Assembly: GCF_010686655.1 (NCBI RefSeq)
Contig: NZ_JAAGVY010000031.1
Coordinates: forward strand, 1 to 59,960
DNA from: Cryomorpha ignava
Lineage (GTDB): Bacteria > Bacteroidota > Bacteroidia > Flavobacteriales_D > Cryomorphaceae
DNA length: 59,960 nt
Reading direction: 5' to 3'
In this document: in pieces, positions 3,289 through 7,335 of the stretch
Position numbering within the stretch: the first letter of the stretch is position 1
How the letters are laid out: each line of letters opens with the position of its first letter
The notes under the pieces: model-generated
Database searches by the model: none
The model's input: the letters and a program-made list of their open reading frames with translations, nothing else
What the model was told of the DNA's origin: nothing
Position numbers and translations under genes: made by a program

Positions 3289-3840
3289 TTAAGCAGGTAC
3301 TTCTTCTACATCTGCCATAATAGTTAGAATGGTTGAAGCAGGCTCTGTATTAGCAGTAATTGTAACAGTTTTATTCTGTTTGTTTTTTTGCTTGCCTGGT
3401 TTATACACAACTTTTATTTCACCTGTTGCACCCGGAGCAATAGGCTCTTTCGGATACTGTGGTACCGTGCAACCGCATGAACCTTTGGCATTTTCAATAA
3501 TAAGAGGTTCTTTACCTGTATTTGTAAAAGTAAAGACTTTGGTGTTTTCAGAATCCTGAAGAATATTTCCAAAATCGTAGGTACTTTCGTTGAAATCCAT
3601 TGCTGTAAGCGGTCCTGAAGGTTTTGTGCTGGCAGATTTCAATGGATCTATCGATGCTACATCTGCAGCTTTCTTATTTGCCAGTGCGGTAGAATTATTG
3701 TCTGCTGCACGCTCAAAAGTTGCTTTTGCACTTGTTGGATCTGCATAGGATGAAGAGCCATTCTTTACTAATAATACTGTGTTTACAACGAGCAATGCTG
3801 CGATGAAAACCATTAATCCGTTTTTTAAACTTTCACTCAT
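3289..3840 (-). CDS. DUF1573 family periplasmic protein
   Basis: A 183-residue protein. Residues 8-26 form a signal anchor or signal peptide, then a low-complexity Ala/Ser/Lys linker, then a DUF1573 domain from about residue 78. The domain has the hallmark pattern FNESTYDFGNI...F.FTNTGKEPLII and a GSCGCTVP motif near 120, an immunoglobulin-like beta sandwich also found in HYDIN/ASPM-type repeats. DUF1573 proteins are very common in Bacteroidota and usually of unknown function in the envelope. It follows the S41 protease gene by 74 bases, but a candidate promoter in that gap and its own terminator suggest it can be transcribed separately. Confidence 0.85.
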   Translation of the reverse strand: MSESLKNGLMVFIAALLVVNTVLLVKNGSSSYADPTSAKATFERAADNNSTALANKKAADVASIDPLKSASTKPSGPLTAMDFNESTYDFGNILQDSENTKVFTFTNTGKEPLIIENAKGSCGCTVPQYPKEPIAPGATGEIKVVYKPGKQKNKQNKTVTITANTEPASTILTIMADVEEVPA

Positions 3841-3914: not shown

Positions 3915-5525
3915 TTAGAATTCAGTACGCGCTAAATTATAGTTTTTATAACTATTGTCATTTAAAATGTCAACTGCATGCGAGAATGCAGGCCAATAAG
4001 GATTGAATACTTGATAGTATGCAGAATAGTTCCAAAGATTTCGTGCAATAAGCGCTTCAAGCCTTCCTTTTATCATTTTTTCAGACGCAGCGTACTGCTC
4101 ATCTGTCCATTCTATTTCGGAATCTTCATCGGCGGTGTATGCTTTAAACTCTTCAATTACAGTATTCATTTCAAAGCTTTCGATAAACTTATCTACGGTG
4201 GGGTAGGTTTTTAAAAGCTGCTTCCTATGTTTATTCGAGTAGGTAATAGCAAAGCTATTCATAACCCCTTTTCTGATCAGATCGGTATTCAGTTTTGTTG
4301 ATTGGGTGGTATCAATGGGTACAAAAACATCGGGAGTAATGCCACCGCCACCATATACAATTCGTTTTTTGTCTGTGAAATATTTCAGAGAATCAGGTGC
4401 GTGGAGACTATCTAATGAAAATACTTCACCAGTTTCATAGCGCTCATATTTCTCCATATAATAAGCTTCGGCACCATCTTCGTATGATTTTTGAATACAG
4501 CGACCACTTGGAGTATAATATTTCTGGGTGGTTAAGCGCACATAGCTTCCATCTGGAAGGGGTATGGGGCGTTGTACCAGTCCTTTTCCAAAACTTCGGC
4601 GACCTACTACCAGCCCGCGATCCCAATCTTGAATGGCTCCGGCCACGATTTCAGATGCGCTGGCAGATCCTTCGTCCATAAGTACCACCAGACGTCCTTT
4701 TTCAAAATCACCATTTGCAGTGGCGCTGCGGTCTCTGCGCGGGTAGCTTCTTCCTTCGGTATAGACTATCAATTCATTTACTTTCAGAAATTCATCGGCT
4801 AAATCTATTGCGGTTTCCAAAAGCCCACCGCCATTTCCTTGCAGGTCAAGTATTAAATCTTCCATACCATTTGCTTTCAGTTGCTTCATGGCTGTTGTAA
4901 ACTCATCCATCGTTGTTTTCGAAAAGCGATTTAGCTTGATATATCCTATTTTGTCGTTGACCATATAAGATGCATCAAGGCTGTAGATTGGTATTTCATC
5001 TCTGATGATTTCAAAATCGAGTGGATCTTTCGTGCCACGACGCGAGATACCGACATTTACTATAGTGCCTTTCGATCCCCTCAGTTTATCTGTTACATCT
5101 TTGTTGGTAATACCTACACCGGCTACATTTTCCCCTTCAATAGATACGATTCTGTCACCGGCCATTATGCCAAGCGATTCACTCGGGCCACCTGCAATAG
5201 GCGATACAACTATAATCGTGTCTTTAAGGATATTAAACTGCACACCGATACCTTCAAAATTTCCTTCCAAACCTTCATTGGCTTTTGCCACATCTTCGGC
5301 AGGAATATAAACGCTATGTGGATCTAAATCTTCAAGCATTTTGCGAATGGCATCATCCACTAATTTATTCGTGGAAACGCTGTCAACATAGCTATTTTCA
5401 ATATGATATAGTAGTGCGGTAAGTTTCTCTGCGGCTTGTCTAAATTCAGTATTGAGTTCTTGCTGTTGAGAAAATGCACTGAAAGACAGAGTGATAGACA
5501 TCACTACAGTAAGTAATAATTTCAT
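3915..5525 (-). CDS. C-terminal processing peptidase (S41 family, CtpA/Prc-like)
   Basis: A 536-residue secreted serine protease. A signal peptide (1-19, ending AFSQ) is followed by an N-terminal helical part, a PDZ domain (about 85-160) and the S41 catalytic core. The catalytic dyad is visible as Ser289 in the block EGSASASEIVAGA and Lys314 in RSFGKGLVQ, 25 residues apart as in CtpA/Prc enzymes. The family cleaves proteins at their C-termini in the periplasm and takes part in envelope protein turnover. The C-terminal 150 residues are an added helical region. The gene is divergent from the sigma-like/pseudo-trypsin fusion at 5791 and lies upstream of the DUF1573 gene. Confidence 0.92.
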   Translation of the reverse strand: MKLLLTVVMSITLSFSAFSQQQELNTEFRQAAEKLTALLYHIENSYVDSVSTNKLVDDAIRKMLEDLDPHSVYIPAEDVAKANEGLEGNFEGIGVQFNILKDTIIVVSPIAGGPSESLGIMAGDRIVSIEGENVAGVGITNKDVTDKLRGSKGTIVNVGISRRGTKDPLDFEIIRDEIPIYSLDASYMVNDKIGYIKLNRFSKTTMDEFTTAMKQLKANGMEDLILDLQGNGGGLLETAIDLADEFLKVNELIVYTEGRSYPRRDRSATANGDFEKGRLVVLMDEGSASASEIVAGAIQDWDRGLVVGRRSFGKGLVQRPIPLPDGSYVRLTTQKYYTPSGRCIQKSYEDGAEAYYMEKYERYETGEVFSLDSLHAPDSLKYFTDKKRIVYGGGGITPDVFVPIDTTQSTKLNTDLIRKGVMNSFAITYSNKHRKQLLKTYPTVDKFIESFEMNTVIEEFKAYTADEDSEIEWTDEQYAASEKMIKGRLEALIARNLWNYSAYYQVFNPYWPAFSHAVDILNDNSYKNYNLARTEF

Positions 5526-5790
5526 AAATGAGGTTTAATGCTTAATTTGTTCATAAAAGTAACGAATCCGCGTAAGGAAGGGATGTCTTAGTGCCGTTAA
5601 ATATGGTTAAAGATGTTTGCCAATGCATACGCCAGGAAAAAAGAAATTGTTCCACCTTATCGTATAAATGATTGGTAATGAAACCTCACAACTGCTTATT
5701 GCGTAAGCGTGTTTAATGTATTCTTATGATAAATCAATAGAATCATCTCTTTTATTTTTTCCAGATGCGTTGCAACACGAAATATAATCA

Positions 5791-7335
5791 ATGAAAAATG
5801 AAGAATTACATAAGTTTACTAGCGAGGATTGGAAGCTGTTAGAATCCCAGTTTGCGGGGTTTTCATTGCCCGTTATCGATTTCGTAACCGAAAATAAAGG
5901 TTCACTTTCTGAAGCCGAGGAAATATACATAAACGCATTTATTTACTATACGCAATTACTCGAGCTTCATGGTCTTAAGCTCTCCACAAAGGCTGAAGAT
6001 TTGATTTATTCTTTTTCGCGGAAGCTTTGGATAAAAGTATTGGGAAAAAGAAATGTGGATGTCAATTTTGTAAAGCATCGCAGGTCATTTTTTGAAATGG
6101 AAGATGCATTTCATGAAATTGAATCCATAAATGAAAGAAGCGAAAAAACGGCCGAGAAACTCGCCGAAGTGGGTGAGCCGGCACGTACGCTGATATTAGA
6201 ACATATTGGGCGAAACGCAGAACTTGCAATTATAGGGTCGAGATTGGGCTATTCCGATGAAGACAGGGCTTTTGGACAAATATCCAAAAGTCTTCGCAAA
6301 CTTATTCGCCTCTCTGAAGGCAAAACATTTGAACTAGATGATGCTGATTTTAAGCTCTTATTGAGATATGTTCTGGACAATCAGGGTCGTGACTCAATAG
6401 ATCTTAATGAAGAGAAAAAAGTAGCAGTAACCATGATTTCGCGATCTGTGGCAATGATTAGAAGCTATGTAACCAGAAACCAGCGCATTGCAAAATTAAA
6501 AGAAATGCAGGAAAGAATTCACCCGGATGTGCATTCTGCTCTTGAAAAATCTCAGCCAGTCAGTACTCAAAAAAACAGAAAAATGAAGCCAATAGCAGTA
6601 TTTGCCCTTTCGGCTATAGTGGCGCTATCCGTTTCGGTGATGACAGCATTCGGAATTTCCGGTTTTCAAAAACAAAACCAGCAATCTGAAACTGAAACCG
6701 AAATAAACGCCGATACGTTAATAACTGAAACCGTCGTTATAGACTCTATGCCTGTGATAGCACATAGTTCATCGGCATTTGCGATTTCTAACGATGGTCT
6801 TTTTATCACCGCAGCAAAAGTCGAAAAGGGAATACGGTTTAAGCTCATCCCATCTGTGGAAGGAGAAGTGCTAATTGGCGAAGTGGTATTTAGCGATACC
6901 GCACAAAGTCTTGCAATAATAAAATGTACTTTAGAAAGCCGTTTGCGATTACCTTATATGTTATCTTTTGAGGATCCGAAAATTGCACAGGAATTGTATT
7001 CTATAAGCAATTATAAGCAAGAATTTTTTTATACGGAAGGTAAAGTAAACGCAGCAGGAGTAGAGGGAATGGGAAAAGTGAAACTAGATAATACTACACC
7101 CGGGGCTCCTATTGTTTCTGAAAAGGGACAAATTCTTGGAATGGTTCTTGGTAATGGTGATGAGAATATGAATCTCGTGATTACCAGTTCAAAAATGAAA
7201 GAAGCTATTTCAAAATATGAGGAAAACTCGGGCTTAAGAGTCCAGCTTGTTACTCGCAATGGTTTGTTTTATAGCAATAGAACATCTCAGGTAGAACTCT
7301 TAAAACCCTTTATCTACGAGGTAAAAAATATTTGA
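5791..7335 (+). CDS. Sigma-70-like / transmembrane / degenerate trypsin-like fusion protein
   Basis: A 514-residue protein with three parts. Residues 10-100 resemble sigma-70 region 2 as found in Bacteroidota ECF-like factors (DFVTENKGSLSEAEEIY, then DLIYSFSRKLWIKVLGKR). Residues 130-172 resemble region 4 with a helix-turn-helix (ELAIIGSRLGYSDEDRAFG). Residues 267-290 are one membrane helix. Residues 325-470 follow a trypsin/HtrA-like pattern (SSAFAISNDGLFITAAKV, then SLAIIKC, then GAPIVSEKGQILGMVLG), but the positions of the catalytic His, Asp and Ser are not conserved: Lys343 stands where His is expected and no GNSGG block exists. The likely topology is cytoplasmic N-terminus and periplasmic C-terminus. 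It may act as a membrane-tethered regulator; function is inferred only. The assignment of both end domains is from pattern recognition. Confidence 0.6.
   Translation: MKNEELHKFTSEDWKLLESQFAGFSLPVIDFVTENKGSLSEAEEIYINAFIYYTQLLELHGLKLSTKAEDLIYSFSRKLWIKVLGKRNVDVNFVKHRRSFFEMEDAFHEIESINERSEKTAEKLAEVGEPARTLILEHIGRNAELAIIGSRLGYSDEDRAFGQISKSLRKLIRLSEGKTFELDDADFKLLLRYVLDNQGRDSIDLNEEKKVAVTMISRSVAMIRSYVTRNQRIAKLKEMQERIHPDVHSALEKSQPVSTQKNRKMKPIAVFALSAIVALSVSVMTAFGISGFQKQNQQSETETEINADTLITETVVIDSMPVIAHSSSAFAISNDGLFITAAKVEKGIRFKLIPSVEGEVLIGEVVFSDTAQSLAIIKCTLESRLRLPYMLSFEDPKIAQELYSISNYKQEFFYTEGKVNAAGVEGMGKVKLDNTTPGAPIVSEKGQILGMVLGNGDENMNLVITSSKMKEAISKYEENSGLRVQLVTRNGLFYSNRTSQVELLKPFIYEVKNI

Follow-up and report, generated by a model that had tools for sequence, protein, structure and literature searches.

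A membrane-anchored fusion of a sigma-derived domain and a catalytically dead HtrA-like domain in Cryomorpha ignava, and its two-gene relatives in Bacteroidia

What kind of protein joins a sigma-70-like domain, a membrane helix and a trypsin fold without its catalytic residues, and from what could it have arisen? The question is raised by a gene of Cryomorpha ignava that lies in a 59,960-nucleotide stretch of DNA (the window), contig 31 of a 149-contig, 5.0-Mb genome. An earlier note on this DNA had read the gene as one chain with a sigma-like part inside, a single membrane helix and a dead HtrA/trypsin fold outside. Profile comparisons and structure models bear this layout out, with a sigma-derived domain as the inner part. 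We regard the fused architecture, and its common descent with a two-gene form, as close to certain. For its mode of action we favor, at a probability of roughly 45%, a membrane-tethered and rewritten sigma factor that would be freed by S41 and site-2 proteolysis.

Fused families and their two-gene relatives

The fused open reading frame (ORF; positions 5791 to 7335) is uninterrupted over 514 codons, and matches to it were found in 19 of 60 related genomes. Within the window's own family, f1, all seven other genomes gave a match: five at full length (35 to 46% identity to the window protein), one split over two contigs and one with a frame that ends early. Six of the f1 relatives are known from metagenome assemblies, and their records carry the labels Flavobacteriales, Cryomorphaceae or Bacteroidia. 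A second family, f2, comprises two genomes with a fused gene of 519 to 521 amino acids (aa) at 22 to 23% identity. Orthologs with the same three-part layout, for which the earlier note had suggested a search, are therefore present in both families, and our counts refer to the eight full-length proteins (six f1 and two f2), leaving out the split copy (G005, on contigs C5 and C18) and the one with the early frame end (G007). No relative was found in the viral contigs searched. A chance ORF or assembly artefact was ruled out, because the same fusion stands at the same place in several genomes. The fused gene has the following parts:

5791..7335, plus strand: whole fused gene, 514 aa, ATG start; sigma-like half, membrane helix, pseudo-trypsin domain and C-terminal tail
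5821..6048, plus strand: Sigma2-like domain, residues 11-86, from HHalign, residue counts and model helices; D replaced by E44 and the region-2.2 Q by I47
6046..6120, plus strand: f1-specific block, residues 86-110 (KR.VD...V.H.R...FHEI type), from conservation and charge
6121..6318, plus strand: Sigma4-like domain, residues 111-176, from residue counts and a structure match to SigL
6319..6555, plus strand: middle helices, residues 177-255, at the position of the anti-sigma domain in the two-gene form and f2
6589..6666, plus strand: single membrane helix, model helix 267-292, from the AlphaFold model and hydrophobicity
6766..7233, plus strand: pseudo-trypsin/HtrA domain, residues 326-481, from Pfam, fold match and alignment; His/Asp/Ser positions K343/S373/P437
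7246..7332, plus strand: C-terminal tail, residues 486-514, similar to that of active relatives

The AlphaFold model of the window protein (seven input rows) has a mean pLDDT of 68 over the full chain and of 86 for residues 1-260. It places four helices in residues 11-86, four in 104-176 and another at 184-196, followed by a long helix (207-254), the membrane helix and a beta-rich domain. A single hydrophobic peak at residues 268-286, preceded by basic residues, agrees with the one membrane helix that had been read after the sigma-like part, and exactly one such peak occurs in each of the eight fused proteins. From its basic flank (QKNRKMKP), the N-terminal side of the helix is presumably cytoplasmic. 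Sigma domain, membrane helix and outer domain are thereby predicted within one chain, which is the IutY-type layout discussed below.

The beta-rich domain matches HtrA1, DegS and their kin with Z scores of 11.4 to 12.7 among the 50 matches listed, over about 130 to 160 aligned residues; the trypsin/HtrA pattern noticed earlier thus corresponds to a clearly predicted chymotrypsin-like fold. Pfam matches Trypsin_2 at E 1.7e-4, which is below the curated cut-off, and NCBIfam gives a weak MarP-type match (E 0.0015). All three catalytic positions are replaced, as had been claimed, with K343 for His, S373 for Asp and P437 for Ser. Orthologs with an intact triad, which would have spoken against the earlier reading, were looked for: none of the eight full-length fused proteins has one (His is lost in eight, Asp in five and Ser in six), and the relatives that do are the separate anti-sigma proteins described next. 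By eye, the triad is also missing from the split G005 copy (E, G and P) and the His from G007. No PDZ domain, which HtrA proteins usually carry behind the protease domain, was found in the window protein: Pfam at E up to 10 gives Trypsin_2 only, and 33 residues remain after residue 481. The tail carries the motif PF(I/V) in six of the eight fused proteins and PC in two. Because a similar tail is common to dead and active relatives, its role probably lies in structure or ligand binding and not in catalysis.

More distant genomes have a two-gene form. Here an ECF sigma gene of 181 to 226 aa (as called) stands beside a protein of 364 to 396 aa (where complete), with the order N-terminal anti-sigma-type domain, hydrophobic segment, trypsin domain. 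Within the order search set, 14 genomes supplied examples of this form. The trypsin-profile searches covered 399 genomes of the order, most of which match weakly through other trypsin-like proteases, and 395 genomes of the class, 72 of which match at E 1e-30 or better. From the order, the best 30 of the matches listed were examined as loci, with L061 and L062 outside the sigma-profile comparison; from the class, 29 loci besides the window's were examined, together with 13 long-frame matches (16 stretches, including one extension and two order loci already covered). An ECF sigma gene adjoins in 28 of the 29 class loci (the stretch fetched for L070 is without a sigma), and all 29 match the anti-sigma domain. 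All 42 two-gene proteins whose sequence extends to the Ser position have an intact catalytic triad. These include the G032 protein, which is interrupted by a run of N before the trypsin domain, and exclude that of G016, which runs off its contig after the Asp and before the Ser. We presume the N-terminal domain to be an anti-sigma domain from its place beside the sigma gene and from what we take to be a resemblance to the starts of Bacteroidota anti-sigma factors; Pfam at E 0.1 found no curated anti-sigma domain in the three two-gene proteins scanned. The long-frame class proteins matched neither the sigma nor the anti-sigma profiles. A fusion widespread in Bacteroidia was also considered, and the order and class loci examined gave no sign of it.

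The sigma-derived half

The first ~175 residues of the window protein are indeed sigma-70-like. Aligned with HHalign against 14 separate ECF sigma partners, six full-length f1 N-termini gave a probability of 99.7 and an E value of 1.7e-25 over residues 10-175 of the window protein, and the reversed control gave a probability of 0.4. Against all 42 sigmas the real score was 169, which was reached by none of 100 column shuffles (maximum 22.5). The f2 N-terminus likewise matched the separate sigmas (E 6.6e-17). With these clean controls, homology of the window protein to sigma2 plus sigma4 extends across the whole domain. Domain libraries report less: no sigma domain was found in the window protein by Pfam (E up to 10) or NCBIfam, nor by Pfam in five other fused proteins, and on two separate partner sigmas Pfam gave Sigma70_r2 above and region-4 matches below the cut-off.

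Folds were compared as well. For the cytoplasmic model, plain Foldseek gave no match with E under 0.001, and the top seven rows of VIA-align were all transcription-initiation or sigma/anti-sigma entries (Z 6.9 to 7.5), with a sigma factor named in five of the seven titles and the chain left unnamed in two. The Sigma4-like part aligned with SigL (3hug_K) at Z 7.1 and an rmsd of 2.1 over 66 residues. Because Z scores of 6.9 to 7.5 are middling for helical models, it is the profile comparison that carries the sigma claim. Thus, of the sigma2/sigma4 check proposed earlier, the profile relationship came out clearly and sigma entries lead the structural matches, with support from the folds that is only moderate.

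Residues that are fixed in the separate sigmas are replaced in the fused proteins. The region-2.2 glutamine, which we take to be a contact to the RNA polymerase core, is present in 42 of 42 separate sigma partners and is I, V or H in eight of eight fused proteins. The aspartate near it is kept in six of the eight and is E in two, including the window protein (E44); together with I47 in place of the glutamine, this confirms that the acidic patch is altered. Five recognition-helix residues (K, K, Y, K and C) are invariant in all 42 separate sigmas, and each fused protein retains at most one. The first K, second K and Y are lost in 8/8 fused proteins, the third K in 4/8 and the C in 5/8; an N of the helix is also replaced in 8/8. 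The full signature, AK(N/T)QKYKC, is therefore found in none of the eight, all of which keep its alanine. Mean net charge of the helix is +5.3 in the 42 sigmas, +2.2 in the six f1 and +2.5 in the two f2 proteins. W80, N35, G37 and A42 of the Sigma2-like part, which are conserved in the separate sigmas too, are retained. Between the two sigma-like parts, the block at residues 86-110 has a charge of 0 to -3 in f1, and the same place in the 42 separate sigmas is usually acidic (mean -4.7, range -7 to 0). Judged by sequence, this block is specific to the f1 family.

Given the replacements in the recognition helix and at the region-2.2 glutamine, the domain may no longer work as a sigma factor. Instead of serving as a transcription factor, the bundle could have become a membrane-anchored binding module, gated by the outer pseudo-protease, which may tie up RNA polymerase or some other partner in the cytoplasm. 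We hold this to be a real though tentative possibility, almost as likely as a released sigma because of the residues lost. The recognition-helix signature missing throughout, the drop in helix charge and the lost glutamine favor it, as does the block at residues 86-110, the best conserved segment measured among the six f1 proteins (mean pairwise identity 68%). However, the Sigma2-like part retains its four conserved residues, and recognition helices can change with promoter preference, so that one lost signature is no proof of lost DNA binding. The same drift of DNA- and core-contact residues, with the sigma relationship kept, is what one would expect of a sigma mimic, whose cytoplasmic half would titrate a free anti-sigma factor and so release a different sigma on a signal. 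But no anti-sigma gene adjoins in the window or within the 1.5-kb flanks of the f1 loci, and we consider a mimic improbable.

Descent and conservation

The fused gene is a derivative of the two-gene sigma/anti-sigma-HtrA operon and stands outside its membership, as it has one ORF and a dead triad. The two forms have the trypsin domain and tail in common. An ordinary ECF sigma with an unrelated C-terminal tail was ruled out, because the second part of the fused protein is homologous to the neighbor of the separate sigma. If a sigma/anti-sigma operon was fused, then the stretch between sigma and membrane helix is the former anti-sigma site. In f2, this stretch matches the anti-sigma domain (HHalign probability 95.8, E 7.4e-9), with 0 of 100 shuffles scoring as high. 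In f1, the comparison with 14 and then 42 partners was not significant (37 of 100 shuffles score as high), so the middle part of the window protein is identified by position only. On these profiles, f2 looks like an intermediate that is already fused and whose middle still matches the anti-sigma domain.

The rooted sigma tree groups the eight fused rows in a single clade (support 99/96), next to the separate sigma of G011 (82/65), within a larger group (84/85) that also holds two more two-gene sigmas. With f2 removed, f1 joins G011 (92/86); with f1 removed, the placement of f2 is unsupported. Note that the program warns of long branches that meet, so that f1 and f2 could be falsely joined. The trypsin tree recovers f1 (100/99) and f2 (100/100) each, and separates the two jointly from the two-gene rows in only 17% of its 200 bootstrap trees. 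From the sigma tree and the common linkage to an S41 gene (below), a single fusion event is favored, not proven. The trypsin paralog in the genome of C. ignava itself (L063:4500-5510, 336 aa) is no second copy, as it has, by eye, triad motifs and no sigma part; this trypsin-like protein has a signal-peptide-like start and a similar C-terminal tail.

Conservation is uneven along the chain. Mean pairwise identity among the six f1 proteins is 55% for residues 11-100 and 52% for 111-176. It is 36% in residues 177-255 and 40% in 264-290, drops to 17% in the outer linker, and reaches 28% in the trypsin-like domain and 41% in the tail. The cytoplasmic half is thus far better conserved than the protease half, a pattern that suggests selection. 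A decaying relic of the two-gene operon, without current function, would fit the loss of catalytic residues, the low identity of the pseudo-trypsin domain and the split or shortened copy in two of eight f1 genomes. Yet the frame is open for more than 500 codons in the other six f1 genomes and in both f2 genomes, and 52 to 68% identity is kept in the cytoplasmic half. Furthermore, both odd copies are in fragmented assemblies, one (G005) at contig ends and the other (G007) beside an S41 gene that is also broken. High conservation of the cytoplasmic half with low conservation of the trypsin domain argues against a useless relic, which we think very improbable.

The S41 neighbor, a proposed mechanism and known systems

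On its upstream side, the fused gene faces a divergent protease gene, which the earlier note had picked out as a possible natural partner:

3915..5525, minus strand: S41/Prc-type C-terminal processing peptidase (ctpA), TIGR00225 prc at E 1.1e-84, divergent from the fused gene
5526..5790, no strand: intergenic region between the divergent genes, from the ORF map

The linkage to ctpA that the note had asked about is present in 10 of 10 fused genomes. Throughout the eight f1 genomes, the S41 gene and the sigma match are 226 to 592 bp apart (for G005, measured from the N-terminal piece). In both f2 genomes the S41 gene lies 4.9 kb away on the same contig, again pointing away, with two genes on the fused gene's strand in the gap. 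No S41 gene was found on the contig of the two-gene locus in four of four genomes; the contrast is solid for two of these (G038 and G032, contigs >100 kb), because the contigs of G011 (9 kb) and G016 (3 and 14 kb) are short. This kind of S41 gene is present somewhere in all 60 genomes searched. The linkage fits a functional link and may also reflect shared descent from a single event. On its other side, the convergent neighbor of the fused gene is a thioredoxin reductase (TIGR01292, E 4.2e-116), which among the genomes compared is nearby only in f1. The C. ignava genome also contains a match to a family of site-2 proteases (PF02163, E 1.8e-52).

Further genes adjoin these loci. After ctpA, at window positions 3289-3840, is a small protein gene with an OS_HP2-type match below cut-off, which we take to be DUF1573-like. 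A similar small gene follows ctpA in f2 (L065:11705-12295), and the pair may be old. The f2 fused gene stands in a same-strand run (L065:3103-10008) with genes for proteins of 934 and 603 aa and a glutathione peroxidase-like gene, at gaps of about 30 to 75 bp. Both of these proteins appear by eye to be secreted, and the 603-aa one has a GGSSGSP motif.

Our main reading is a membrane-tethered sigma. A two-gene operon, encoding an ECF sigma and a membrane anti-sigma factor with an HtrA-like protease, would have been fused into one membrane protein, which then would have lost its catalytic residues and had its sigma part rewritten. The sigma-like half would be tethered at the inner membrane face, and the dead outer domain would sense or bind a ligand such as a peptide or a misfolded envelope protein. 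On a signal, the divergent S41/Prc-type protease might trim the outer domain (site-1), a site-2 protease might then cut near the membrane helix, and the freed sigma-like half could engage RNA polymerase with an altered preference for promoters. Prc itself we take to be an S41 protease. Here, the signal, both cuts, the release and any action on transcription are what we infer, next to a computed architecture, descent, triad loss, helix rewriting, conservation, linkage and site-2 gene.

By analogy, the strongest outside support for a released sigma comes from IutY of Pseudomonas putida, a sigma/anti-sigma membrane fusion that, in the part of the work consulted, is activated through Prc and RseP (PMC5411451). 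Like the window protein, IutY (ECF243) has an N-terminal cytoplasmic sigma domain, a membrane segment and a periplasmic regulatory domain in one chain. However, as described in the same passages, IutY (374 aa) belongs to an iron cell-surface-signalling system, its outer part is the anti-sigma domain, and its sigma was shown to work (PMC5411451). The outer part of the window protein is a trypsin fold, and its sigma-like half may or may not be active. According to excerpts of a review, IutY is the only ECF sigma with a fused extension whose proteolytic activation is experimentally characterized (PMC8999054). The same excerpts list further sigma factors, namely, ECF48, ECF52, ECF53 and some ECF36, whose extensions cross the membrane and are expected to serve as fused anti-sigma factors. 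In these respects they resemble the window protein, but ECF48, ECF52 and ECF53 are from Actinobacteria and have zinc-finger domains (ECF52 with a carbohydrate-binding outer domain), ECF36 members have N-terminal extensions, and the passages on these groups mention no protease or pseudo-protease domain (PMC8999054).

The E. coli RpoE/RseA/DegS system is another likeness. As outlined in a partly consulted source, it likewise has a sigma and an anti-sigma in the membrane, and release of the sigma is initiated by an HtrA-type site-1 protease (PMC8103513). It consists, however, of three separate proteins with an active, PDZ-bearing DegS, unlike the dead HtrA domain held in the same chain here. The closest comparison is the two-gene Bacteroidia operon, which has the same parts in the same order, with homologous sigma, trypsin domain and tail. 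It differs in having two genes, an intact triad (in all 42 proteins that reach the Ser), and the invariant helix residues and region-2.2 glutamine in all 42 sigmas.

The earlier note, which knew of no described system with this layout, needs correcting here. Membrane fusions of sigma and anti-sigma are known, as IutY, ECF48, ECF52, ECF53 and some ECF36 attest, and the one-chain kind as such is not new. Among the open-licence PubMed Central matches listed, none described a sigma or anti-sigma factor that shares its chain with a trypsin/HtrA domain, and none the two-gene form, in which a presumed anti-sigma factor brings its own HtrA-like protease. A pseudo-HtrA domain as the outer part, a sigma rewritten in this way and an origin traceable to two genes did not turn up there either. 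The window protein thus adds a pseudo-protease sensor to IutY-type fusions, and with a two-gene relative and f2 as an apparent half-way form, one can trace how the genes fused, how catalysis was lost and how the sigma was rewritten.

A broad class of presumed anti-sigma factors that carry an HtrA domain of their own is indicated for Bacteroidia as well, and the two-gene form may be the larger discovery. In the portion of one survey consulted, only 6% of the ECF sigma factors of this phylum are linked to class I anti-sigma domains (PMC7406223). A wider picture, which we consider doubtful, is that Bacteroidia have an unnamed anti-sigma class with its own HtrA-type site-1 protease, from which the window's lineage would have made a one-chain switch that is cut externally, with a dead sensor, an S41 first cut and a new promoter or partner specificity of the sigma.

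Three sets of loci add to the variety of these parts. The two-gene operons with an intact-triad HtrA-like domain (L067 to L095 and loci of the order search set) are possibly a self-cutting anti-sigma class. Downstream of a further ECF sigma gene (L026:1498-2040, contig C12), whose recognition helix retains AKTQKYKC, a protein is encoded that opens with an anti-sigma-like stretch and has a hydrophobic segment; no trypsin domain was seen in it. In L096 to L108, L110, L111, L058 and L059, the same trypsin domain stands behind other N-terminal parts that gave no sigma or anti-sigma match, in proteins of about 420 to 750 aa, many with a signal-peptide-like start.
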